From the NCBI RefSeq assembly GCF_003977755.1, contig NZ_RQWN01000009.1, forward strand, positions 1 to 46,512: a DNA stretch of 46,512 nt, given 5' to 3'. Shown here piece by piece: positions 1-46,512 of this stretch (the stretch's first letter is position 1; each line of letters begins with the position of its first letter). The notes below the pieces were generated by a model. It ran no database searches and was not told the origin of the DNA. It was given only the letters and a program-made list of their open reading frames with translations. This DNA is from Haloterrigena salifodinae (GTDB taxonomy: Archaea > Halobacteriota > Halobacteria > Halobacteriales > Natrialbaceae). A program made the position numbers and the translations under genes.

Positions 1-627
1 GTGAATCTCAACGAGGATCCGATGCCGCTGGCCGAACAGGCCGGCGTGATGAAAGACCGCCTCGAGGCGCTGCCCCTCGGGGAGTACGAACACGCCACCC
101 GCATTGTCTCGGAAGTCGAGTGCAACTGGAAGGTGTTCGCGAGCAACTACTCGGAGTGTGACCACTGCCAGGCTAACCACCAGGACTGGATCAAGGGCAT
201 CTCGCTCAACGATTCCGAACTCGAGGTCAACGATTACCACTGGGTGCTCCACTACACGCACGCCCAGGACGTCGAGGACGAGATGCGGATCCACGACGAG
301 CACGAGGCCCAGTTCCACTACTTCTGGCCGAACTTCACGGTCAATATGTACGGCACCGCCGACGGCTACGGCACCTACATCATCGACCCGATCGACACCG
401 ACCGCTTCCAGCTCATCGCGGACTACTACTTCCGCGATAGCGAACTCTCCGAGGAAGAGCGCGAGTTCGTCCGGACGAGCCGCCAGCTCCAGGAAGAAGA
501 CTTTGAGCTGGTCGAACGCCAGTGGGAAGGCCTCAGAACGGGCGCGCTCGCTCAGGCCCAGCTGGGCCCCAACGAACACACTGTCCACCGCTTCCACCAG
601 CTCGCCCAGGAAGCCTACGACTCGTGA
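1..627 (+). CDS. Rieske oxygenase alpha subunit (GbcA-type), 3' part, copy 1
   Basis: The C-terminal 208 residues of an aromatic-ring-hydroxylating-oxygenase alpha subunit; the gene runs off the left edge, so the first GTG is internal. Family role: with a reductase partner, GbcA-type enzymes demethylate glycine betaine to dimethylglycine plus formaldehyde. The mononuclear iron motif is visible as ECDHCQANH (H-x4-H, about residues 55-60 of the visible part), with the third-ligand aspartate in EEDFELVERQ near the end. The fragment is about 96% identical by eye to the paralogue at 10689-11699, but many differences are synonymous, so the duplication is not recent. Whether this copy keeps its Rieske domain cannot be seen. 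A small gene follows 61 bases downstream on the same strand. The substrate is inferred from the choline/betaine genes around it. Confidence 0.93.
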   Translation: MNLNEDPMPLAEQAGVMKDRLEALPLGEYEHATRIVSEVECNWKVFASNYSECDHCQANHQDWIKGISLNDSELEVNDYHWVLHYTHAQDVEDEMRIHDEHEAQFHYFWPNFTVNMYGTADGYGTYIIDPIDTDRFQLIADYYFRDSELSEEEREFVRTSRQLQEEDFELVERQWEGLRTGALAQAQLGPNEHTVHRFHQLAQEAYDS

Positions 628-688: not shown

Positions 689-1048
689 ATGAGCACGCAA
701 GATCAGGCATCGTACGTCGCGTCCTGTCCGGAGTGCGACGTCGATCTACGAACCGAGACGCCGAACGAGATCGTCGAGTTCTACCGCCGTCACTATCGCG
801 TGACGGGCCACGACGTAGAGTTCGAACGCGCACAGTTGGATTTAGACGAGGACGTCACGAGCGACGATCTCAAGGACGTCGTCTGGCAGCTCCAAGAGCA
901 CTACGAGAACGGCGTCCCGATCGGCGTCGTCGCGGCGGCGATGTCCGACCGCGGACTATCGATCGGCGAGACGATCGACGAGATCCATGAAGTACGGATG
1001 ACCGGCGGCCTGTACGAACCACAGGACGATCATCTAGGCGCGTTCTGA
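689..1048 (+). CDS. Small protein with MCM-like C-terminal winged helix
   Basis: A 119-residue protein. The N-terminus has a CPEC pair (residues 12-15) and scattered histidines (RRHYRVTGH), perhaps half of a metal site. The C-terminal half (about residues 55-119) resembles the winged-helix tail of haloarchaeal MCM helicase: helix, G-x-P-I turn, helix, then GGLYEPQDDHL, close to the GEVYEP-x-x-DHL ending of MCM. No AAA+ domain is present, so this is a free-standing DNA- or protein-binding module. The ATG at 689 is the first in the frame after the upstream oxygenase stop; earlier in-frame extension runs over the oxygenase gene in another frame and is a shadow. It may be cotranscribed with copy 1 of the oxygenase. 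Function unknown. Confidence 0.75.
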   Translation: MSTQDQASYVASCPECDVDLRTETPNEIVEFYRRHYRVTGHDVEFERAQLDLDEDVTSDDLKDVVWQLQEHYENGVPIGVVAAAMSDRGLSIGETIDEIHEVRMTGGLYEPQDDHLGAF

Positions 1049-2744: not shown

Positions 2745-4346
2745 CTAGTCATCGTCGTCCTGCCCCTGTGGGTGGGAGGAATCGGTGTTCGCAGACGTGA
2801 TCAACGTGTCCTCGTTTGCTAGCGTGGACTCTCCCTGATAGTATTCGCGAGCGGTAACGTAACTTGCATAGACGATCGCCAGGAGGAAGAGCGTGAACGG
2901 GAGCGCGAGCACCGGGGGAAACGCTTGCATCGCGTCGAACACCGGAAGTTCGAGCGTCATCACGCCGAGGAAGGAGAGCAGGACTCCCCACCACGCCCGG
3001 TTTCGAGCGTTCGGCTCCTCCGTGCCAAGCGTTATCGAGGAGAGGATGTACACGGCCGAGTCCAAGGACGTCACGACGTACCCGGCGATCACCAATATGA
3101 GCAACACTCCCAGCAGGGGTGCGAACGGCGTGAGAGTGACCGCAGTCGCGATCGAGGCGGGGATACCGCCGCTGGCAAACGCGTCACTGACCGGCCCGAC
3201 GTATCCCGGTGCGAGCACCCAGCCGCCGACGATGGAGTGCTGTATCCAGAGCAACACGCCAGGAATAACGACCAGGCAGACGAACGTCTCGCGGATGGTT
3301 CGGCCCTTCGACACGCGGGCGACGAAACTGCCGACGAACAGACCCCATGCGGCCCACCACGCCCACCAGAAACTCGTCCATTGTTGGGGCCAATTGCCCG
3401 CAGCCGTCGGAGCGGAGTACAGCGAGAGGCGGAACATGTTATTCAGCCAGACGCCGCCGGCGTCGAGTCCGAGGTTGATCGTAAAGAGCGTCGGTCCGAC
3501 CGTGAGGAGCAGCGCGAATGTGACCAACATGAGGACGACGGTGATCCGAGCGGCGTTGCGAATCCCGCTTCGCAGCCCCAACCAGACGTCCCCGAGGAAG
3601 ACCAGTCCGAGAACGCCGAACAGCCCGTACGTGAACAGCGTCGGGGGAACGCCGAACACCGTATCCAGCAGGGCGGAGAACACCTGCGCGGAGAATCCGA
3701 TAGCCGCCGCGACGCCGCCGATGATGGCGATCAGCGCCGCCAAGTCGACGGTCCAGTAGAGGAGCTTGTACCGATCGTCGTCAAGGAACACCTTTAGCAT
3801 CGAACTGAACTTGTACGAATCCGTACCGCGCGTGTAGATGATCAGTCCGAACGCCAACGCGAACGGCGGATACCACATGGCGAGTCCCGGGAAGACCTCG
3901 TGGATGAACATAAACGCGAGCGCGAGCGATTCGATTGAGGCCCCCGTGACCGGAAGCGGCTCCGGAGGCGGACTGTTCACGATGGAGATGGGTTCGCCGA
4001 CCCCCCAAATGATGATCGAGCCGCTGTACCCGACCGTGAACACCATGGCGAGCCACGAGAACAGATCGAACTCTGGCTCGGCGTCCTGTCCGCCGATCCG
4101 AATGTGACCGTATCGCGAGAAGACCATGTACGTCGAGAAGACGAGCAATACCATCCCGAGTAACATGAACCACCAACCGAAGTAGGTCAACACCCATCCG
4201 AAGGCCTCGTTGAACGTATCGTTGAGGACCTGTGGACTCCGGATACCGATCGCTGCTAACGCCAGCAACGCCCCTCCCGTGATGAAGAACAGGAGTTTCT
4301 CATCGGCGTCTGCGCTTTCCAGGCCGAATATGTGCCAGAAGTTCAT
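2745..4346 (-). CDS. BCCT-family transporter (choline/betaine type)
   Basis: A 533-residue membrane protein with about twelve hydrophobic segments. It has the family core: a Trp-rich helix FWWAWWAAWGLFVGSFVARVSKGRTIRE (given here in outline, about residues 328-355) followed by the helix with PGVLLW. Family members take up choline, glycine betaine or carnitine with Na+ or H+, or by exchange. The C-terminal tail is acidic and short (ending GQDDDD), without the long BetP sensory tail. Its start ATG overlaps the stop of the small gene 4343-4567 in an ATGA, so the two are translationally coupled. It lies downstream of the ALDH and Fe-ADH genes on the same strand, which suggests choline as the cargo; this is inference from context. 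Confidence 0.93.
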   Translation of the reverse strand: MNFWHIFGLESADADEKLLFFITGGALLALAAIGIRSPQVLNDTFNEAFGWVLTYFGWWFMLLGMVLLVFSTYMVFSRYGHIRIGGQDAEPEFDLFSWLAMVFTVGYSGSIIIWGVGEPISIVNSPPPEPLPVTGASIESLALAFMFIHEVFPGLAMWYPPFALAFGLIIYTRGTDSYKFSSMLKVFLDDDRYKLLYWTVDLAALIAIIGGVAAAIGFSAQVFSALLDTVFGVPPTLFTYGLFGVLGLVFLGDVWLGLRSGIRNAARITVVLMLVTFALLLTVGPTLFTINLGLDAGGVWLNNMFRLSLYSAPTAAGNWPQQWTSFWWAWWAAWGLFVGSFVARVSKGRTIRETFVCLVVIPGVLLWIQHSIVGGWVLAPGYVGPVSDAFASGGIPASIATAVTLTPFAPLLGVLLILVIAGYVVTSLDSAVYILSSITLGTEEPNARNRAWWGVLLSFLGVMTLELPVFDAMQAFPPVLALPFTLFLLAIVYASYVTAREYYQGESTLANEDTLITSANTDSSHPQGQDDDD

Positions 4347-4702: not shown

Positions 4703-6223
4703 TCAGAGTTCCGGCTCATCGAGATTGACGTAGACCGATTTCGTCTGCTGGTAGTGGTCGAGCACCTCCGTGCCCAGGTCTTTTCCGATACCCGACTCCT
4801 TGAAGCCGCCATACGGAGCCTGCGGCAGGATCGGACCGTACTCGTTGACGTACACGAGCCCCGCTTCGATGTCCGCCGCCGCGTTGTGGACGACGGACGT
4901 CCGCTCGGTCGCGATGCCCGCTGCAAGTCCGAACTCGGTGTCGTTCGCGAGTTCGATCGCCTCGTCGTAGCTCGAGAACGTGTTGATCGTCTGTACGGGC
5001 CCGAAGATTTCCTCCCGAGCGATGCGCATATCGTTCTCCACGTCGTCGAACACCGTCGGTTCGACGAACCAGCCGTTCCGGAGGTCGGAATCGTCTGGCG
5101 GTCCGCCACCCGTGAGCAGGGTGGCGCCTTCGTTCTCGCCGACGTCGATGTATTCTGTGACCGTCTCGTACTGGGACTCGGTAGTGAGCGGCCCCATCGT
5201 CGTCTCTTCGTCGAGCGGATCGCCGAGCGTGTAGGATTCGGCTTTCTCGACGAACCGGTCGACGAACTCCTCGTGGACGCTCTCGTGAACGATCGCTCGA
5301 GAGAACGCGTCGCAGATCTCTCCCGTGCTGTAAAAGATACCGTCAGCGACGGCGGAAACCGCCTTTTCCAGGTCGGCGTCGGGAAACACGATAAACGGCG
5401 ACTTCCCGCCGAGTTCTAACGTAACCGGGGCGACGTTTTCGGCGGCCGCCTGCATCACTCGCTGTCCAACGCCGACGCTGCCAGTGAACGAGATTTTGCG
5501 GACCTGATCGTGTTCTGTCAGTGCGCCGCCGACCTCCGATCCGGTCCCGGTGACGACGTTAAGCACGCCGTCCGGGAAGATACCCTCGGACAGTTCGGCG
5601 ATGCGGATCGTCGTCAGCGGGGCCTCAGCCGACGGCTTCAGCACGGTCGCGTTCCCCGTCCCAAGCGCGGGCCCGAGCTTCCACGCGGCCGCCCAGATCG
5701 GGAAGTTCCACGGCGTGATCTGTCCGACCACGCCGTAGGGCTCTTTTCGCGTGTAGAGGTGCAGATCCTCGGACGTCGACACCTGTCTCCCGTCCTGACT
5801 CTGGCCCCGGCAGATCGACGCGTAGTATTCTAAGGTTCCAATCGCCCCTTCGACCTCCCCTCGAGCCTGCGACATCGGCTTCCCGGTGTCTATGCACTCC
5901 AGGAACGCCAGTTCGTCGACGTGATCGCGGAGTACGTTGATCCAGTCGAGCATGAGTCGAGATCGTTCGGCAGGGGTCGTCTCCGACCACTCCTCGTCGA
6001 ACGCGCTCCACGCGGCGTCGACTGCCGTATCGACCTCCGCCGAGCCGCAGCGCGGAATCGCGGTGATTGGTTCACCGACGACGGGGTCGACGGTCTCGAC
6101 GACCTCGTCCGTCTCGTATCGAGACCCGTCTAGCCACGAGTCGAACGTGCTGATATTCTCGACTCGTTCTCTCGCTTCCACGTGATTCTCCCGTAACTGG
6201 CCGCTAACAGTCTCTGATGCCAT
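4703..6223 (-). CDS. NAD(P)-dependent aldehyde dehydrogenase (betaine-aldehyde type)
   Basis: A 506-residue ALDH-superfamily enzyme of full length. Visible landmarks: cofactor-binding PWNFP (171-175) and KPSAEAP (197-203), FTGSVGVG (247-254), general-base Glu270 in LELGGKSP, catalytic Cys304 in STGEICDAFSR, and EEIFGP. The residues after the catalytic Cys (DAFSR) differ slightly from the usual x-A-x-S/T-R pattern. The likely reaction is betaine aldehyde to glycine betaine, inferred from the type III alcohol dehydrogenase upstream and the BCCT carrier downstream, the same trio as the Bacillus gbsAB system. It has its own TATA box about 30-40 bases before the ATG. Other aldehyde substrates cannot be excluded. 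Confidence 0.93.
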   Translation of the reverse strand: MASETVSGQLRENHVEARERVENISTFDSWLDGSRYETDEVVETVDPVVGEPITAIPRCGSAEVDTAVDAAWSAFDEEWSETTPAERSRLMLDWINVLRDHVDELAFLECIDTGKPMSQARGEVEGAIGTLEYYASICRGQSQDGRQVSTSEDLHLYTRKEPYGVVGQITPWNFPIWAAAWKLGPALGTGNATVLKPSAEAPLTTIRIAELSEGIFPDGVLNVVTGTGSEVGGALTEHDQVRKISFTGSVGVGQRVMQAAAENVAPVTLELGGKSPFIVFPDADLEKAVSAVADGIFYSTGEICDAFSRAIVHESVHEEFVDRFVEKAESYTLGDPLDEETTMGPLTTESQYETVTEYIDVGENEGATLLTGGGPPDDSDLRNGWFVEPTVFDDVENDMRIAREEIFGPVQTINTFSSYDEAIELANDTEFGLAAGIATERTSVVHNAAADIEAGLVYVNEYGPILPQAPYGGFKESGIGKDLGTEVLDHYQQTKSVYVNLDEPEL

Positions 6224-8283: not shown

Positions 8284-9087
8284 CTACGGACCGTCACTAC
8301 GGTCGTTCGCCAACCGTCGTTCGAACGATTCGACGGTCCGCTCGAGCACCGAAACGATATTCTGCTCGATCACCTCATCGGTAATGCGATAGCTCGGTCC
8401 CGAGACGCTCATGGCACCGATGGGAGGACTGTCCGGTCGATCAACCGCCATCCCGACGCCGCGCAATCCGTCGGTAAATTCCTCGTCGTCGATCGCGTAT
8501 CCCCGATCGTCGACACGCTCGAGTTCCTCGAAGAAGGCCTGTCGATCGGTGATCGTGTTATCCGTGTTCGCCGGTAGTCCCCACCGGTCGAGGATTGCTT
8601 CGGTACGTTCCCGGGGCAATTCGGCGAGAATCGCTTTCCCGGATGCGGTAGCGTGCATGTGGTAATATGTCCCCATTCGAGCACGGTAGCGGTTCGAATC
8701 GCTCTCGTCCGGGTATTTCACCCATTTGTGGTACGATTCCGAGATCGTGACGACGCAACCGTGGTCCTCGATCACGAAATCGACCTCTTCGTCGGTCGCG
8801 TCCGTCAGCTCTCTTACGGCGTCGTCCGCGAACTGGTAACCTACCTTTCGACTCCGAGCATGTTCGCCGAGGTCGAGGAATTTCGGACCGATGTGGTATT
8901 CGTCGCCCTCTTTTACCAAATAGCCGCATTCGTACAGGGTGATCACGTGCTTGTATACCGTACTTTTGGCGAGCGATAGATCTTCGGCGAGCTGGGAGAG
9001 GTTCGCGCCGCCGCGTTCCCGTATTCGGTCGATCAGCGCCAGCGAGCGAGCGGGCGTTTTCAATGTCGGATTCTTCGGTTGGCCCAT
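8284..9087 (-). CDS. IclR-family transcriptional regulator
   Basis: A 267-residue regulator. The N-terminal winged helix-turn-helix covers about residues 10-70 (LIDRIRERGGANLSQLAED, LAKSTVYKHV, then wing GDEYHIGPKFLDLGE). The C-terminal effector-binding IclR domain has YHMHATASGKAILAELP, the SGKA motif of the family, and GLRGVGMAVD. Two adjacent ATGs lie at 9090 and 9087; a TATA-like CTTAATTGG about 25-35 bases upstream (9112-9122) fits a leaderless transcript starting there, so the longer frame from 9117 is rejected. The gene lies directly upstream of the choline-oxidation block on the same strand and is the obvious candidate regulator of it. Confidence 0.92.
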   Translation of the reverse strand: MGQPKNPTLKTPARSLALIDRIRERGGANLSQLAEDLSLAKSTVYKHVITLYECGYLVKEGDEYHIGPKFLDLGEHARSRKVGYQFADDAVRELTDATDEEVDFVIEDHGCVVTISESYHKWVKYPDESDSNRYRARMGTYYHMHATASGKAILAELPRERTEAILDRWGLPANTDNTITDRQAFFEELERVDDRGYAIDDEEFTDGLRGVGMAVDRPDSPPIGAMSVSGPSYRITDEVIEQNIVSVLERTVESFERRLANDRSDGP

Positions 9088-10227
9088 CATATGTGATGTC
9101 AATCCATGCCATTCCAATTAAGCATTTCGCACATCGAAACACTAGTTCGAATTTCGCTTCTCAGAACAACCATCGGCGGATCTGGGACTGTCATCTCCCC
9201 ATTTCGCCGATCCACAATCTGTAGGGGGTTATACCATTTGTCTATTCGAAACCGTCCGCCGTTCGTTCGCAGTTGGCGAGATGACGTCACGATCGCCCGA
9301 AAGCACCCTGATAACGCCACGTATGGGATGACTCTCGGTCCCGAGACTTGCTCGCCACTCACAGCGTTGAGTCGAGCGTCGAGGAGCGGGCGAACGGTCG
9401 GCAGACGACACTGCACTCTTCTCCCGGGTTCCGTTTTGGATCCGTTACCCGGCCTCCTATTCGGTTGTCTCTCCCGTTCGACTACGGTACGTCGGCTCAC
9501 TTCGCCAAGTCCATTACACTCGTACTGATGTAATCACCTGCGTTTACGCCCGCCGTCTCAATGTCGAGACCGATTATACACGGTCCGACCGAAACCCGAT
9601 CGGTAGCTCGACGTTCGAACGATTCGCCTGTTCTCATCGGTCGGCAGACCTGCTCTCTCTCATCGGTGCGGTGGGCTATTATCTTCCGCTGACTCCCGGC
9701 ATCGCCTACTGAGCTGCAGCGGCCGAAAGAAGTCTCCGAGGTCATAGTAGCCTGCTAGTCGCGGCGACTTGTGACACTGAAACTGCGACCCCACCGTCCG
9801 CTTTTACGCATTCGAAAAGTACGGGTGATACTACGTCTTTCACTCGCGATCGTACGCATCCGGCAGCAGTTCTATTTCCGCCTCTTTCACACTGAAGTCG
9901 TAGTTCCGTTCGAAAACGTAGTCCAGAGAGATCGTGCCCCATCCACGAAAGGTACTATTTCTAAGGTTTTGTGTTTCACGATTTCGTTTCGCGAGACTCT
10001 CGCGTAAATACGGCGGTACCGATCGGATACGACGGTAGCCAGGCGATTCTCTTCATCCCTCATTCCGGGCGGACTGAAAGGCGATAGTATCAGTGACTGT
10101 CACTTGTCGCCACCTCATCTCTTCCGGCGTGATTCGGACTTCCATCAGGAATCGGTTGCTAATTACGCATCCACACGCAGTGGTGGCTGTTTTCCGAAAA
10201 ACAGCTACGGTCACCGCGAGCCGATCG
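9088..10227. other. Long stretch without a convincing gene
   Basis: About 1.1 kb with only short, poorly composed frames on both strands. It holds the IclR promoter at its left end and one gene-like tail at 9840-9947 (listed separately). The base composition is less GC-rich than neighbouring genes. With the gene remnants on either side it looks like decayed sequence. Confidence 0.5.
9840..9947 (-). pseudogene. Possible 3' remnant of an unrecognised gene
   Basis: The minus-strand frame reads SLDYVFERNYDFSVKEAEIE then LLPDAYDRE and TGA (9840-9842). The composition is typical haloarchaeal coding sequence, but the frame has no start codon and degenerates upstream to a TGA about 70 codons earlier. 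No family was recognised. Confidence 0.3.
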
Positions 10228-10596: not shown

Positions 10597-10655
10597 GATC
10601 CGATATCCGGATCTGGAAACCGGACATATAATGGGATTCTATATAACTGGTTAAC
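10597..10655 (+). promoter_or_regulatory. Promoter region of the Rieske-less oxygenase gene
   Basis: It contains, in order, a 17-base inverted repeat GATCCG-ATATC-CGGATC (10597-10613), a TATA element TCTATATAA (10638-10646) and the sequence ACTGGTTAAC (10646-10655). The last ends 34 bases before the ATG and is matched by ACTGGTCAAC at exactly the same distance before the third oxygenase paralogue (46069-46078). Placed just after the TATA box, it could be an operator; this is inference. Confidence 0.5.
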
Positions 10656-10688
10656 GCTTTTTCGTAATGCCCTCAATTGTGCTACTGT

Positions 10689-11699
10689 ATGACGCAATGG
10701 AACCAAAGCCAGACCGAGGCAGTAAGCGCAGACATCACGGAGAAGACGAACGCGCTGCCGGCCCGGTACTTCACCGATGACGACGTCTTCGAGATGGAGA
10801 AAGAGAAAGTGTTCGGCCAGTACTGGGTGTACGCCGGCCACGCCAATAGCATCAGTGATCCCGGCCAGTACTTCACGCGAACCATCGGCGGGCGTGATCT
10901 AATCGTCGCTCGAGACGACGACGGTGACGTCCGCGCCGTGGAGAACTTCTCCGCTCGCGACGGTAACGCGCTTCTCGAGGACGCGCCGATGACCGATCCC
11001 GGGCGTGTCGATCCGGACGAGCTCGCTGATGCGGAGTCGGTGCACGCCGACAGCATCGGTCCGCTGCTGTTCGTCAACCTGCGCGAGGATCCGATGCCGC
11101 TGGCCGAGCAGGCCGGCGTGATGAAGGATCGTCTCGAGGCGTTGCCCCTTGAGGAGTACGAACTCGCCACCCGGATCAGTTCGGAGGTCGAGTGCAACTG
11201 GAAGGTGTTCGCGAGCAACTACTCGGAGTGCGACCACTGCCAGGCTAACCACCAGGACTGGATCAAGGGCATCTCGCTCAACGACTCCGAACTCGAGGTC
11301 AACGACTACCACTGGGTACTCCACTACACGCACGCTCAGGACGTCGACGATGAGATGCGGATCCACGACGAGCACGAAGCCCAGTTTCACTACTTCTGGC
11401 CGAACTTCACGGTCAATATGTACGGCACTGCCGACGGCTACGGCACCTACATCATCGACCCGATCGATACCGATCGCTTCAGGCTGATCGCGGACTACTA
11501 CTTCCGCGACAGCGAACTCTCCGACGAAGAGCGCGAGTTCGTTCGCACGAGCCGCCAGCTCCAGGAAGAGGACTTCGAACTGGTCGAACGCCAGTGGAAG
11601 GGACTTAGAACGGGCGCGCTCGCTCAGGCCCAACTCGGCCCCAACGAACACACCGTCCACCGCTTCCACCAGCTCGCCCAGGAGGCCTATAACTCATAA
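10689..11699 (+). CDS. Rieske-less paralogue of a GbcA-type oxygenase alpha subunit, copy 2
   Basis: A 336-residue protein, shorter than the usual 370-430. Residues 1-80 align almost identically with the third copy (MTQW start, ALPARYFTDDDVFEMEKEK). Where copy 3 has the Rieske motif C88-x-H90, this protein has S88 and R90 (NFSARDG). The segment with the second pair, C112-x2-H115 in copy 3, is absent: the chain jumps from PMTDPGR to VDPDELADAESV. All four [2Fe-2S] ligands are therefore gone. The catalytic domain is intact: His183 and His188 in ECDHCQANH, Asp295 in EEDFELVERQ, and about 96% identity to copy 1. No frameshift or stop is present. The ATG at 10689 matches the start of copy 3; the upstream TTG/Cys codons are not used. 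It may be inactive, regulatory, or part of a mixed trimer. Confidence 0.9.
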   Translation: MTQWNQSQTEAVSADITEKTNALPARYFTDDDVFEMEKEKVFGQYWVYAGHANSISDPGQYFTRTIGGRDLIVARDDDGDVRAVENFSARDGNALLEDAPMTDPGRVDPDELADAESVHADSIGPLLFVNLREDPMPLAEQAGVMKDRLEALPLEEYELATRISSEVECNWKVFASNYSECDHCQANHQDWIKGISLNDSELEVNDYHWVLHYTHAQDVDDEMRIHDEHEAQFHYFWPNFTVNMYGTADGYGTYIIDPIDTDRFRLIADYYFRDSELSDEEREFVRTSRQLQEEDFELVERQWKGLRTGALAQAQLGPNEHTVHRFHQLAQEAYNS

Positions 11700-11759: not shown

Positions 11760-11936
11760 ACCGAGATTCGTTATCTGGAATTGCTGCGACGACACTCTCC
11801 GATCTGGAGTCGTGTTTCGTACCTCCTCTGCGCCGATTGGCTGCGTCTTGATAAAGTGTAACTCTCCGCCGACGAGTTGCGTCTCACGCTTTACGAGCAT
11901 CGTGGTGTTTACGAAAGTGTGTGGTGAGATCCCCCT

Positions 11937-12350
11937 ATGATTACCGACTCGATGAGCAATCTAGCGGACGGGACTCTGGACGGTGTCGTCACCGACGTGT
12001 AAAAACGAGACAAGGACTCATCCACACCCTCGCGACCGAGCCTGACTTCGAAGCGGGAGATGCTGTCACGGGTCGCATTGACGAAGAGTTCCGGACCTAC
12101 TGCACGCGAGCGCATACGGCGAGTCATTCGGTGTACGGCGTGGAACGAAATCTGTTTGAGGACCCTGGGTACAGCGGGTTTGATATCGGATCGGAGAAAG
12201 TTCGCCTGGGCTTCGAAACTGACCGCGACCCCGGCGATGGAAACGCTATCACGCTCGAGAAATGGGAAACGAAGTCGGAAACGCTCAGGACATCACATGG
12301 GAAGGGCCTTTAGACGCGGAACAACCGCAGCAGCGAGTATTTAAACACCA
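11937..12350 (+). pseudogene. alaX: 5' part of a broken alaX (alanyl-tRNA editing) gene
   Basis: It translates in pieces to the N-terminal half of the intact AlaX at 27077-28288. ADGTLDGVVTDV ends at a TAA (12000-12002). After a frame change, GLIHTLATEPDFEAGD, DEEFRTYCTRAHTASHSVYG and GFDIGSEKVRLGFETDRDP follow. A second frame change leads to EMGNEVGNAQDITWEG. The HxxxH zinc motif (RAHTASH) is still there, but at least one stop and two frameshifts disable the gene. The matching C-terminus lies beyond the EamA gene at 12870-12935. Confidence 0.8.
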
Positions 12351-12935: not shown

Positions 12936-13212
12936 TTGCTCAGAGGCGACGAGAGCGTGAATTCTCCCCCCGTATTGAGCTAGACGAAACGGCATGTTTT
13001 CCCGTTCTTTTCAACAAATCAAATATATTATCTGTTGTGGGCGGTGCGAACTAAGTCTATAGCGCACGTGTCCCCGTTCCGACTCGATGCCAGCCGCGAA
13101 CACAGAACTGCGATAACGGTCCCTGTATCGCCGCTATTGGAGCGGATGACGAACTATCACTCTCGGCGGTGACGGGAGATTCATTACACGTCGACACGAG
13201 ATGCCATACGGA

Positions 13213-14331
13213 ATGGTCACGTCTTCATCGGAGATTCCGATCACCGTTATCAGTGGACCGCTGGGTGCGGGTAAAACGACGCTGGTCAACCGACTGCTGA
13301 ACAACCCCGGCGAGAGGCGAATCGCCGTCATCGTCAACGACATGGGCGAGGTCAACGTCGACGCGGAGTTGATCGCTGACGAGACGGAAGAAGGTGTCGT
13401 CGACCTCTCGAACGGGTGTATCTGCTGTCGGCTCCAGGACGACCTCGTCGCTCAAGCGACGCGGTTGGCTGAGGAGCGTTCGTTCGACTACCTCGTCGTC
13501 GAGGCGTCGGGAATCAGCGAACCGGTTCCCATCGCTCGTGCGCTCACGGAGGGGACAAACGAAGACAGCCTTCCGGACCGGTTCCGCCTCGATACGACAG
13601 TTTCGGTCGTCGACGCTTACGGGTTCTGGAAAGCGTTCGATTCCGAAGAATCCCTCCCGGATGCTGCCCCGGACCCGGAGCGCCCGCTAACCGAGGTGTT
13701 AGTAGACCAGATCGAGTTCTGCGACGTGTTGCTGCTGAACAAATGCGATATGGTTCCCGATGATGCGCGGGAGTCTATCGAGACTGCCATCCGTAAACTC
13801 CAGCCGCGTGCGACGCTTCATCGAACGACGTACAGCGATGTCGACCCGAGTGCCGTTCTTAATACTGGATCGTTCGACTTCGAAGCGGCACGGCGGCAAC
13901 AAGGCTGGAAGCGAGCGCTGTCCGGAGAAGCAGCAAACGAGCATCCGGGTCACGACCACGGTGACGATGCCGTTTCGGCGGCTGAGGCACACGGCGTCGA
14001 GTCGTTCGTCTATCGGCGAGAGCGTCCCTTCCATCCCGAGCGGTTCGACGCGTGGCTCGACGACTGGGACGGCAAGATTATCCGCGCGAAAGGGTTCGCG
14101 TGGGTCGCGAGTCGCCCGGAGACGGTTCTCGGGGTGAGTCAGGCCGGTCCGTCCGTCCAGGCTGGCCCGATCGGCGAGTGGGGAGACGACGACCCGGCGA
14201 CACGGTTAGTGTTCATCGGTAGCGACCTCGACGAAGCGGCCGTGACCGACGAACTCGACGACTGTCTAGCTGCGTCCGACGAACAGACCGAAGCGTACGC
14301 TACCGATCCCTTCCCCCGCGGATCTGCTTGA
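13213..14331 (+). CDS. CobW/ZNG1-type GTPase (metallochaperone family)
   Basis: A 372-residue G3E-family GTPase. It shows Walker A GPLGAGKT (15-22), the metal-binding CICC motif (69-72) that defines the COG0523 family, ASGISEP as switch region, and the NKCD base-recognition motif. A histidine-rich loop EHPGHDHGDD links to the C-terminal CobW_C domain (FHPERFDAWLDDWDG). Relatives hand zinc or cobalt to target enzymes; the target here is unknown. A Zn-dependent alcohol dehydrogenase gene lies convergently downstream. Two in-frame ATGs exist (13201 and 13213); the second is chosen because the extra MPYG has no family counterpart. Confidence 0.9.
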   Translation: MVTSSSEIPITVISGPLGAGKTTLVNRLLNNPGERRIAVIVNDMGEVNVDAELIADETEEGVVDLSNGCICCRLQDDLVAQATRLAEERSFDYLVVEASGISEPVPIARALTEGTNEDSLPDRFRLDTTVSVVDAYGFWKAFDSEESLPDAAPDPERPLTEVLVDQIEFCDVLLLNKCDMVPDDARESIETAIRKLQPRATLHRTTYSDVDPSAVLNTGSFDFEAARRQQGWKRALSGEAANEHPGHDHGDDAVSAAEAHGVESFVYRRERPFHPERFDAWLDDWDGKIIRAKGFAWVASRPETVLGVSQAGPSVQAGPIGEWGDDDPATRLVFIGSDLDEAAVTDELDDCLAASDEQTEAYATDPFPRGSA

Positions 14332-14568: not shown

Positions 14569-15732
14569 TTACGGTTCCAGCAGGACCTTCGTGACGCCTT
14601 CCTCACGGTTGTCGAATTTCTCGTACATCTCCGGTGCGTCCTCTAGGCCGACGCGGTGGGAGACGACCCAGCTGGGATCGGCGCGCCCTTCGATGATCAT
14701 GTCGCGGAGTTCGCGGTTGTACTCCTTGACGTTGCACTGGCCGGTACCGAGCGCCTGCCCCTTCTCGAAGAGGAGGCCAAAGTCGATGCCGAGACGTCCC
14801 TGTGCGGCCATGTCGTCCGGTGCACCGGGGTCATCGGGGACGTACAGTCCCGGAATCCCAAGTTCACCGGTCGGGCGGACCGTCCGGATGAGATTGTTGA
14901 TGACAACAGCCGGGTTCTCGCGAGCGGGGTCGTACGCGCCGTCGCCTTCCTTATCCGGGTCGATAGCCTGGTATCCGACGGCGTCGACGCCCTTATCGAC
15001 GCCCCCGCCATGGACGTCCTTGATCTGTTCGACCGGATCTCCCTCCTCGAAGTTGATCGGCGTCGCGTCGCAGTGTTCCTCAGCTAATTCGAGGCGGCTG
15101 GGAACGCGGTCGACGACGTAAATCTCCGCGGCACCCTTGAGCTTCGCGCTGTAGGCCGCCATCAGGCCCACCGGCCCGGCACCGTAGATTGCGACGGAGT
15201 CACCGGACTGGAGGTTGGCGAGCTCCGTGCCGTGCCAGCCGGTCGGGAAGATGTCCGCGAGCAGTGCAAACGAGTCCTCGTGTTCGTCTCCGTCGGGCAG
15301 TTTGAGCGCGTTGAAGTCCGCGTACGGAATGCGGAGTTGCTCAGCCTGACCGCCCTGGTACGGCCCCATCGCGACGTACCCGTACGCGCCGCCGGCGAAT
15401 CCGGGATTGACGTTCGTACAGAAGCCCGTGTAGCCGTTCTCGCAGTTCTCACAGAAGCCACAGGCGACGTTGAACGGCGCGACGACGCGGTCGCCCACCT
15501 CGAGGGAACTCACCGCGTCGCCGACCTCGGTCACGACCCCCATGTTCTCGTGCCCGAACACGATCCCCGACTCTGCGGCCGTCCGCCCTTCGTACATGTG
15601 GAGGTCGGACCCGCAGATGCACGTCGTCGTGATGTCGATCACGACGTCGTTCGGGTGTTCGATCTGGGGTTGCTCGACTTCTTCGACCGCAACCTCGCGT
15701 TCGCCTTTGTAAACGACGGCATTCATGGACAT
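14569..15732 (-). CDS. Glutathione-independent formaldehyde dehydrogenase-type Zn alcohol dehydrogenase
   Basis: A 387-residue medium-chain dehydrogenase. Catalytic zinc residues are in CICGSDLHMYEGR and GHENMG; the structural zinc lobe is CGFCENCENGYTGFC. The Rossmann motif is GAGPVGLMAAYSAKLKGA, followed by VVDRVPSRLELAEE. The long insertion with NPGFAGGAYGYV and the DPDKEGDGAYDPARENPA segment are typical of the Pseudomonas FdhA branch, which oxidises formaldehyde with tightly bound NAD. Betaine demethylation by GbcA releases formaldehyde, so a detoxifying role fits; other alcohols are possible. The TATA element GAATATAAATATG (15767-15779) gives a leader of about ten bases. It is transcribed away from the IS and ppc remnants. 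Confidence 0.9.
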   Translation of the reverse strand: MSMNAVVYKGEREVAVEEVEQPQIEHPNDVVIDITTTCICGSDLHMYEGRTAAESGIVFGHENMGVVTEVGDAVSSLEVGDRVVAPFNVACGFCENCENGYTGFCTNVNPGFAGGAYGYVAMGPYQGGQAEQLRIPYADFNALKLPDGDEHEDSFALLADIFPTGWHGTELANLQSGDSVAIYGAGPVGLMAAYSAKLKGAAEIYVVDRVPSRLELAEEHCDATPINFEEGDPVEQIKDVHGGGVDKGVDAVGYQAIDPDKEGDGAYDPARENPAVVINNLIRTVRPTGELGIPGLYVPDDPGAPDDMAAQGRLGIDFGLLFEKGQALGTGQCNVKEYNRELRDMIIEGRADPSWVVSHRVGLEDAPEMYEKFDNREEGVTKVLLEP

Positions 15733-44260: not shown

Positions 44261-44284
44261 GTGGGCTATTCCTCATGTACCCTT

Positions 44285-45514
44285 ATGCCAAATGACCGGA
44301 TGATTATTAATATCATGGGAGTCAGTGGCTCGATTGAGAAGATCTCTCAAACGATCGAACGATACGAAGCGGCCGGGGGCGAGATCCATCGCGTCGACGC
44401 AACGGTTCGAGGGGACGGTGATGAACCGAGCATCGCGGTCGACGTCGTCGTTCCGCTGTGTTCGGCAACGGGAGTGGCGTCCAGCGAGGCCGAGGCGACA
44501 CCACGAGCGGCGACGGTCGAGGAGAACGGCGGTCTCTGCCTTGAGTTTCCGCCGTCAGTCGTGCCGGAGATCGACGAGTTCGCGCCCGCGGACGCGTCGC
44601 TCGTCACGGAGGAAGCGACGGTTACCTCGGAGGGAACCGTCGTCGTCACGTTCGCCCTCGGTCTCGAGGCGAACGCGGAGCCGAGCAGTGAAACGGTAAA
44701 CGGGAACACCGAGTCCGACGGGAGCGGAAGCGAATCGACCGACTCAATCGAGCGCGACCGCTCGGATCGCGAGACATCGGCCGATTCGCTCGAAGGGGCG
44801 GTAACGACCGGCGAGTCAAAGCCGGAATCGGCGACCGAAAGCGAGGACGAACGCGCGCTCGAGTCCCGCGATCGATCTGCCTCGGATTCGGCTCCGAACG
44901 CGGTGACGAGCGACGTCGCGATCGACGACGAGACCGAGCGTGCACTCGCGGCCGCACGGAACGAAGACCTGCCGCCGTACGACGACGTCGAGTACCTGGA
45001 GTGTCTGTACGACTCCTTCGATACGTTCACCGCGATGGCGGAGGTACTCGAGATGGACGTCGCGTCTGAGACCGTTCGGCGATATATGATCGACGCCGGC
45101 ATCCACGAGCCGACGTCCTACGAAACGACCGCGCCGGACGAGGACGACGCGACGACCGACGGCTCGGAAACGACGACCGGCCAGCAGGATTGCTCCGTCG
45201 CTGAAGAACGGGAGCCGATGACCGACGATTCGGTCGCGTCCGTCCCGGAGAAACAGCTCGTCGCCGACGGGATCGGTCTTCCCGAAGACGTCGAAATCAA
45301 CGAACTGATGGACGCGATCGAGTCATCTATGACGTTACACGACGTCACCCGGGAGCTTAGCCTCGAGCGAAGTCGGACCCGCGAACTGCTCGAGCAGCTG
45401 AACCTGCTCGATCTCGTCGTGAAACGTGTCTACGGCTCGGCCGACCCCGAGCGATCCCCCTCGCGAAACGAGATTGCCGATCGGATTCGCGAGAGCGTCA
45501 CCCACGGCCAGTAA
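44285..45514 (+). CDS. Acidic protein with two helix-turn-helix-like segments
   Basis: A 409-residue protein of unrecognised family. Residues 1-125 form a beta-rich domain (MIINIMGVSGSIEKISQTIE, then YEAAGGEIHRVDATVRG). A Ser/Asp/Glu-rich linker follows (about 130-205). A first HTH-like unit is EYLECLYDSFDTFTAMAEVL then VASETVRRYMIDAGI; a second acidic linker; then a second HTH-like unit ELMDAIESSMTLHDVTRELS then RTRELLEQLNLLDLV. This suggests a DNA-binding regulator. It lies two genes upstream of the third oxygenase gene on the same strand and could control it. The start is set by the TATA box at 44251. Confidence 0.78.
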   Translation: MPNDRMIINIMGVSGSIEKISQTIERYEAAGGEIHRVDATVRGDGDEPSIAVDVVVPLCSATGVASSEAEATPRAATVEENGGLCLEFPPSVVPEIDEFAPADASLVTEEATVTSEGTVVVTFALGLEANAEPSSETVNGNTESDGSGSESTDSIERDRSDRETSADSLEGAVTTGESKPESATESEDERALESRDRSASDSAPNAVTSDVAIDDETERALAAARNEDLPPYDDVEYLECLYDSFDTFTAMAEVLEMDVASETVRRYMIDAGIHEPTSYETTAPDEDDATTDGSETTTGQQDCSVAEEREPMTDDSVASVPEKQLVADGIGLPEDVEINELMDAIESSMTLHDVTRELSLERSRTRELLEQLNLLDLVVKRVYGSADPERSPSRNEIADRIRESVTHGQ

Positions 45515-46061: not shown

Positions 46062-46078
46062 CAATATCACTGGTCAAC
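46062..46078 (+). promoter_or_regulatory. Promoter element before the third oxygenase gene
   Basis: CAATATCACTGGTCAAC matches the promoter of the Rieske-less paralogue (TATATAACTGGTTAAC). The ACTGGTYAAC core ends 34 bases before the ATG in both. The surrounding leader sequences have diverged, which makes the shared core stand out. Confidence 0.45.
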
Positions 46079-46111
46079 AGTTTTTAGGCTATATTGTGTT
46101 ATTGGTACCGT

Positions 46112-46512
46112 ATGACACAGTGGGACGATTCACAGACGAAATCGGTGAGCGAGGACATCACGGAGGAATCGAACGCGCTGCCGGCTCGCTACTTCACCGA
46201 CGATGACGTCTTCGAGATGGAGAAAGAGAAGGTGTTCGGCCAGTACTGGGTGTACGCCGGCCACGCCAACAGCATCAGCGATCCCGGCCAGTACTTCACG
46301 CGGACGATCGGCGATCGGCAACTGATCGTCGTCCGCGGTCACGACGGCGATATCAAGGCGTTCGACAACGTCTGTGCCCACCGCGGCTCGAAGATGGTCG
46401 AGGATACGCCGATGACCGACCCCGGCGATGCAAAGCGAATCAAGTGTCCGTACCACCTCTGGACGTACGACCTCGAGGGAGAACTCAAAAGCACGCCCAA
46501 GAGCTTCGACGA
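46112..46512 (+). CDS. gbcA: GbcA-type Rieske oxygenase alpha subunit, 5' part, copy 3
   Basis: The first 133 residues of a Rieske oxygenase; the gene runs off the right edge. The Rieske [2Fe-2S] motif is intact: Cys88-x-His90 (NVCAHRG) and Cys112-x2-His115 (KCPYHLW). Residues 1-80 are nearly the same as in the Rieske-less paralogue (ALPARYFTDDDVFEMEKEK, GQYWVYAGHANSISDPGQYF). The catalytic domain lies beyond the window. It is the best candidate in view for the working glycine betaine monooxygenase; the substrate is inferred from the surrounding choline, dimethylglycine and one-carbon genes. Confidence 0.93.
   Translation, partial: MTQWDDSQTKSVSEDITEESNALPARYFTDDDVFEMEKEKVFGQYWVYAGHANSISDPGQYFTRTIGDRQLIVVRGHDGDIKAFDNVCAHRGSKMVEDTPMTDPGDAKRIKCPYHLWTYDLEGELKSTPKSFD

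Follow-up and report, generated by a model that had tools for sequence, protein, structure and literature searches.

Reciprocal loss of metal-site ligands in paralogous alpha-type Rieske oxygenase subunits suggests a mixed complex in haloarchaea

Introduction

Electron transfer between the subunits of Rieske oxygenases has been inferred from structures of homo-oligomers and from mutants. A short gene of the haloarchaeon Haloterrigena salifodinae raises the question of what an alpha-type subunit can do when it has lost every ligand of the Rieske cluster but kept its mononuclear iron site. The gene lies on a complete contig of 46.5 kb (C9; 46,512 nucleotides), which is the whole stretch of DNA analyzed here and is referred to as the window. 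RefSeq labels the product as "SRPBCC family protein" and nothing more, an annotation that leaves the system hidden. The initial annotation described the gene as a GbcA paralogue and proposed that its product could work in a mixed trimer or act as a regulatory or substrate-binding subunit.

The short gene and its long paralogues

The short gene is an open frame with an ATG start that encodes 336 aa (Table 1). Its product matches the full catalytic domain PF00848 (Ring_hydroxyl_A; E 6e-20) in Pfam but only the first half of the Rieske domain PF00355 (model positions 2-42 of 88). The Rieske ligands C88, H90, C112, and H115 (numbering of the long paralogues) correspond to Ser, Arg, and two gaps, and the second cluster loop and the strands that follow it are deleted after approximately residue 105. 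Both replacements and the in-frame loss of the C112/H115 segment had been recognized in the initial annotation, as had the unbroken frame and the retention of H183, H188, and D295; comparison with the long paralogues bore out all of these readings and found E180 and the C181/C184 pair as well. E180, C181, H183, C184, and H188 align with the ECYHC..H motif of CntA and are invariant across 45 aligned short and long sequences. Judged by its sequence, the product is a Rieske oxygenase alpha subunit without cluster ligands and with an intact iron site.

The catalytic half shares 199 of 208 aa with the intact long copies from this species, which agrees with the approximately 96% given initially; nucleotide identity is 575/624 to one long copy and 571/624 to the other. 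The synonymous differences from "copy 1" of the initial annotation are also real (dN 0.024, dS 0.38). This "copy 1" and "copy 3" are only partial genes because the contig ends fall within a repeated long gene, and they represent the 3' part and the 5' part, respectively, of two different long genes. Both long genes are complete on the closed plasmid pHTS280.6 of H. salifodinae BOL5-1 (NZ_CP069192.1), where the one at the window start corresponds to long copy A (185724-186857) and the one at 46112 to long copy B (230740-231873). On this plasmid, the short gene follows long copy A at a distance of 10 kb and precedes long copy B. A base-by-base comparison of the window ends with those of contig C6 showed identity over no more than the first 92 nt, and the long gene is therefore present in two distinct copies. 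The short protein encoded by the plasmid is identical to that of the window (336/336 residues), and the 11 nucleotide differences between the two genes are all synonymous (11/11). An assembly error as the source of the short form was ruled out by this identical protein on a closed plasmid and by the presence of the form in 22 species.

Table 1. Features of the window and of the paired oxygenase genes.
Feature	Coordinates	Strand	Basis or remark
3' part (catalytic domain) of second long alpha subunit	1..627	+	cut by contig start
HVO_B0008-like protein (PF25214/PF25215), 119 aa, N-terminal CPxC	689..1048	+	
BCCT betaine/carnitine/choline transporter	2745..4346	-	Pfam
Aldehyde dehydrogenase, betaine-aldehyde-dehydrogenase-like	4703..6223	-	
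IclR-family regulator	8287..9090	-	
TATA-like box (10625-10634) and motif TATATAACTGGTTAACGCTTTTT (10640-10662), 43 nt before ATG	10625..10663	+	conserved position in other species
Short Rieske-ligand-less, iron-site-containing alpha-type subunit, 336 aa	10689..11699	+	ORF, PF00848, half PF00355, orthologues
Remaining first part of Rieske fold, residues 45-105	10821..11003	+	alignment; AF2
C88 codon (Ser) and H90 codon (Arg)	10950-10952 and 10956-10958	+	alignment
Mononuclear iron site: E180 (bridging acid), C181, H183, C184, H188	11226..11252	+	alignment
D295, third iron ligand	11571..11573	+	invariant in short and intact long proteins
CobW-type GTPase	13201..14331	+	near short gene in 9/20 loci
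Glutathione-independent formaldehyde dehydrogenase-like protein	14569..15732	-	
Promoter motif before long gene, AATATCACTGGTCAACAGTTTTT	46062..46084	+	pattern match
5' part of intact long alpha subunit; C88, H90, C112, H115 present	46112..46512	+	cut by contig end

Distribution among haloarchaea

Orthologues of the short form were identified in 22 haloarchaeal species belonging to four families when the family, the order, and named genomes were searched, such that the form occurs in 21 species besides that of the window. The 20 short proteins analyzed at full length are all exactly 336 aa with no indels; the copies of Natrinema versiforme (altered C-terminus) and Haloterrigena salina (assembly gaps) are outside this set. 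None of the four Rieske ligands remains in 20 of 21 short proteins, and the other one (G072) retains only His90 (1/4). The residue pair at C88 and H90 is S-R in 19 proteins, S-H in one, and S-N in one, and C112 and H115 are absent from all 21. All 21 with a readable frame keep the residue at the Tyr203 position of CntA, the bridging Glu, the Cys pair of the CxxC motif, and the two His and one Asp. Every short gene shares its contig with a long gene of the same subfamily, and the two are mostly 1-16 kb apart. Long genes without a short gene occur (e.g., locus L048), and no short gene without a long gene was seen among the species that carry the short form. In the sampled phylum, the short form was not seen outside Halobacteriales. 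Reciprocal loss is not a general trait across the wider family, since more distant homologues from G302, G414, G015, and Haladaptatus sp. DYSN1, at 37-41% to the short protein, retain both metal sites.

Several irregular copies were also noted. In Natrinema versiforme (L045 and L036), the short and the long genes carry the same 30-aa C-terminal tandem duplication, which could reflect either a fault in the assembly or a duplication spread by gene conversion. The draft genome of Haloterrigena salina (G025; L100 and L101) contains oxygenase copies with runs of N, duplicated edges, and frame breaks, and these were excluded as assembly damage. Orphan fragments of the catalytic domain were found at G027:C1:22969-23340 and G022:C33:143652-143819 (65-79% identical over 56-123 residues); these fragments, one of which has a stop codon, are real pseudogenes of the family, unlike the short gene.

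Reciprocal loss in Natronococcus-type genomes

Six Natronococcus-type genomes (G086, G087, G088, G090, G091, and G092) have a long partner in which the other metal site is lost, and this Rieske-only long gene sits just upstream of the short gene. The six long proteins all keep C88, H90, C112, and H115, and the surrounding residues 86-141 are almost unchanged. None of them has the E-C-x-H-C...H iron motif, and their short neighbors keep the whole iron site. The loss of C222-D-H-C225 is one exact deletion of the 4 aa CDHC in all six; H229 is missing as well, and the Asp ligand is replaced by Ala or Leu in four of the six. In a genome-wide search, the short gene encodes the only intact PF00848 domain of G086, G088, G090, G091, and G092, and G087 has one unrelated oxygenase besides it. 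Catalytic domains of other Pfam families were outside that search. G094 of the same genus cluster has an intact long gene and a short gene, which shows an earlier stage before the loss of the iron site in the long gene. This complementary pattern in six genomes is the strongest, if indirect, evidence for a mixed complex.

Selection on the short and long genes

Under a codon model, the short gene has an omega of 0.032 in the catalytic half and 0.118 in the Rieske-like half; the corresponding values for the intact long partners are 0.020 and 0.084. The Natronococcus long genes have 0.066 in the Rieske half and 0.202 in the dead catalytic half. An omega of 1 was strongly rejected for all five partitions tested, including the dead catalytic half. 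Pairwise dN/dS between the short genes of the window and G027 is about 0.06-0.07, and dN/dS between the copies, for which the initial annotation had named a value near 1 as refuting, is far below 1. NG86 gives higher pairwise estimates in every case (median 0.66 for the dead catalytic half), and this gap between the methods makes the degree of constraint on that half method-dependent. The dead catalytic domain is apparently relaxed yet still constrained, as expected if it has to fold and to pack. The short gene is under strong selection and is neither a lone oddity nor a pseudogene.

Shared promoter motif and gene conversion

The short and long genes have a common promoter architecture, in which a TATA-like box is followed by TAT-ACTGGTTAAC-TTTT 43 nt before the start codon. 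The strict pattern was found before all 23 long genes and 11 of 21 short genes, and the remaining short genes have near matches. Only two further strict matches occur in about 765,000 strand-bases of compared loci. The window contains exactly two matches, at 10646 (short gene) and 46069 (long gene).

In the tree of the N-terminal part, 20 of 21 short proteins group together, and the Rieske-only and the intact partner-type long proteins form one supported clade. The catalytic part gives a tree in which the short proteins of many species pair with the long proteins of their own genome (13 label changes) and the Natronococcus short proteins form one clade (support 100/99). For most genomes, the short and long genes are closer at synonymous sites in the catalytic part than they are in the N-terminal part. 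These patterns indicate that the catalytic halves of the two genes have been homogenized by gene conversion. The simplest history begins with an old duplication, after which one copy lost the cluster while the catalytic halves kept converting; in Natronococcus, the other copy then lost its iron site, and conversion came to an end.

Structural comparison with known oxygenases

The carnitine monooxygenase CntA is the best PDB match both by sequence and for the predicted fold. The AF2 model of the short protein has the two-domain alpha-subunit fold (Z 26.7, rmsd 2.7, and 276 aligned residues against CntA), and the model of the Rieske-only long protein also has an alpha-subunit fold (Z 24.6 against CntA). 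The mean pLDDT is 68 for the short protein and 66 for the Rieske-only long protein; in the former, it is ~82-93 over residues 41-170 and <50 at 179-195 around the iron site. In CntA, the cluster and the iron are 44 Å apart within a subunit and 12 Å apart across the interface, which is bridged by Glu205, and Glu205 mutants are inactive (PMC7948474). The roles of E205 and C206/C209 have been described (PMC7948474; PMC10952381), and the group V features of a bridging Glu and a CxxC pair by the iron (PMC7948474; PMC10952381) are met by the invariant E180, C181, and C184. The short protein resembles CntA (group V; PDB 6Y8J and 6ZGP) in the ECxHC..H motif, the bridging Glu, the Cys pair, and the Tyr at the Tyr203 position. 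However, CntA is a homotrimer with both metal sites in each subunit, whereas the short protein lacks the cluster ligands.

Two other systems are relevant. The 7-methylxanthine N7-demethylase NdmC has no Rieske cluster and uses the extra cluster of the reductase NdmD (PMC4408171); it is likewise a non-heme iron oxygenase subunit for which a partner must bring the cluster (PMC4408171). In that system, however, the cluster is on the reductase NdmD and the GST-like NdmE is needed, whereas the cluster source of the short protein would be a paralogous alpha subunit, which is itself without an iron site in Natronococcus. NdmA/NdmB (PDB 6ICK/6ICL) is an alpha3alpha'3 complex (PMC12445004) and thus also combines two different alpha-type subunits in one oxygenase, but the alpha subunits in that review have two domains with both sites, and no site is split between them (PMC12445004). 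For a Rieske-less alpha subunit with a Rieske-only paralogue, the literature gave only descriptions of the NdmC type, with most subscription journals not covered. The statement in the initial annotation that no case was known needs correction, since NdmC is a partial precedent: a Rieske-less subunit had been described there, although NdmC is organized differently and no reciprocal split was found.

Neighboring genes and possible substrate

The HVO_B0008-like gene comes after the long gene in 18 of the 20 loci that were compared, and in L111 and others it lies between the long and the short genes; its product could be a maturation or assembly factor. Other genes around the pair encode a DMG/sarcosine-dehydrogenase-like FAD/GCV_T protein, folate genes, and IclR regulators. 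The formaldehyde dehydrogenase-like protein would consume formaldehyde released by N-demethylation. This setting fits oxidative N-demethylation of betaine or a relative; the substrate is inferred from it, and there are no enzyme data for betaine demethylation. The gene cluster yielded no electron donor for the long subunit. The gene clusters contain no reductase or Rieske-reductase fusion, and unassigned Rieske proteins exist elsewhere in the genomes. In most species, the gene immediately upstream of the long gene encodes a regulator-like protein of 370-470 aa without a Pfam match (L108:3555-4682, the same place in 15 loci; about 44261-45514 in the window). On the 3' side of the short gene, 11921-12313 of the window encodes an AlaX/alanyl-tRNA-synthetase-like fragment that is complete in L107 (9394-10596) and looks like a pseudogene remnant.

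With respect to GbcA and the stachydrine demethylase Stc2 (group Vb), GbcA is the best NCBIfam model, and the BCCT transporter, the DMG/sarcosine-dehydrogenase-like protein, and the formaldehyde dehydrogenase fit betaine demethylation. However, the 670-bit cut-off of NF058607 (GbcA) was not reached (77.7 bits for the short protein and 137.7 bits for the long protein P0006). Asn at the Tyr203 position of CntA is the criterion for group Vb, GbcA/Stc2 (PMC7948474), and it is not present; the residue is Tyr178 in the short protein and Tyr219 in the long protein, which is the group Va state. The short protein further differs from GbcA/Stc2 in the missing cluster ligands. The name GbcA given in the initial annotation can thus be kept as a family-level label but is too specific, the scores being far below the cut-off and Tyr replacing the Asn of GbcA/Stc2.

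Proposed mechanism and alternative explanations

We consider it quite probable that the short protein is an iron-only alpha-prime subunit in a mixed oligomer with the long alpha subunit, whose cluster would feed the iron of the short chain; no protein data are available for this proposal. As part of a quaternary-ammonium Rieske oxygenase, the short protein would be co-expressed with the long protein and form a mixed head-to-tail oligomer. Electrons would pass from the Rieske cluster of the long subunit across the interface to Glu180 of the short subunit and on to its mononuclear iron, which would oxidize the substrate, probably by N-demethylation of betaine or a similar compound. The long subunit still has its own iron site in most species; in the Natronococcus group it has lost this site, and with each metal site on a different polypeptide neither chain would work alone. 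The 12 Å interface geometry of CntA means that an iron-only chain can be served by a cluster-bearing neighbor, and by this analogy the paired genes suggest such a service. The complex itself, its stoichiometry, and the electron path are inferred, and the membership of the two proteins in one complex rests on genetic signs only, namely their linkage, the common promoter motif, gene conversion, and the reciprocal loss of sites. In a trimer ring of Rieske-only and iron-only chains there would be one productive interface, so either the assembly is different or only one site per trimer works. The mixed oligomer suggested in the initial annotation thus gains support from the 21 other species and the low dN/dS, with the association remaining an inference.

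Pseudo-subunits are common in oligomeric enzymes, and the long protein is complete in most species and could do the chemistry alone, which leaves some room for the short protein as a subunit that regulates the long oxygenase, helps to assemble it, or binds its substrate without taking part in catalysis. We regard this as unlikely, since the short protein keeps all iron ligands, the bridging Glu, and the Cys pair in a half with an omega of 0.032, and in Natronococcus no other subunit of the pair has an iron site. The regulatory or substrate-binding option of the initial annotation is weakened accordingly: the reciprocal-loss pairs speak more for a mixed complex that is catalytic than for a subunit with a regulatory role alone. 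Marginally less likely still is an NdmC-like arrangement, in which the short protein forms its own oligomer and a separate Rieske donor, the long protein in the case of Natronococcus, supplies electrons. The precedent is that NdmC works with the extra cluster of NdmD (PMC4408171), but no reductase or Rieske-reductase fusion is present in the clusters, even in Natronococcus the long protein has a degenerate but complete catalytic domain under constraint (omega 0.20), as would be expected if it must pack in the ring, and gene conversion keeps the catalytic halves alike in other species.

The remaining two explanations have very little in their favor. In the absence of NADH and reductase, CntA can make use of hydrogen peroxide (PMC10952381), and the short protein might work without any Rieske donor by such a peroxide shunt; this is very improbable, since it leaves unexplained the constant linkage to the long gene, the shared promoter, and the selected Rieske-only long gene of Natronococcus. 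That the short gene is a pseudogene, decaying or maintained by gene conversion, can hardly be entertained. The cluster ligands are all gone and evolution is faster in the Rieske-like half than in the catalytic one, as might be expected of a pseudogene, but the length is constant over four families, the frame is unbroken except in one poorly assembled species, the iron site is invariant, an omega of 1 is rejected, and the two strains differ by 0 replacement and 11 synonymous changes. The short gene also has its own conserved promoter motif, and its specific N-terminal part is conserved even though it lies outside the converted region.

Implications

Returning to the mixed oligomer, we think it likely, with somewhat less confidence than for the oligomer as such, that the two proteins form an obligate heteromer in which reciprocal loss has divided the two metal centers between paralogous alpha subunits, with an ancient iron-only chain in many haloarchaea and a matching Rieske-only chain in the Natronococcus group. 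No such reciprocal division between paralogous alpha subunits is described in the literature available. Living species show the steps, from a long gene paired with a short gene that has lost one site to complementary losses in both. They thereby provide a clean natural series from a homo-oligomer to an obligate hetero-oligomer through complementary loss, in which gene conversion stops once the active site of one copy is lost. With the two sites seemingly on separate chains in nature, these proteins would allow a direct test of the electron path of Rieske oxygenases without engineering.
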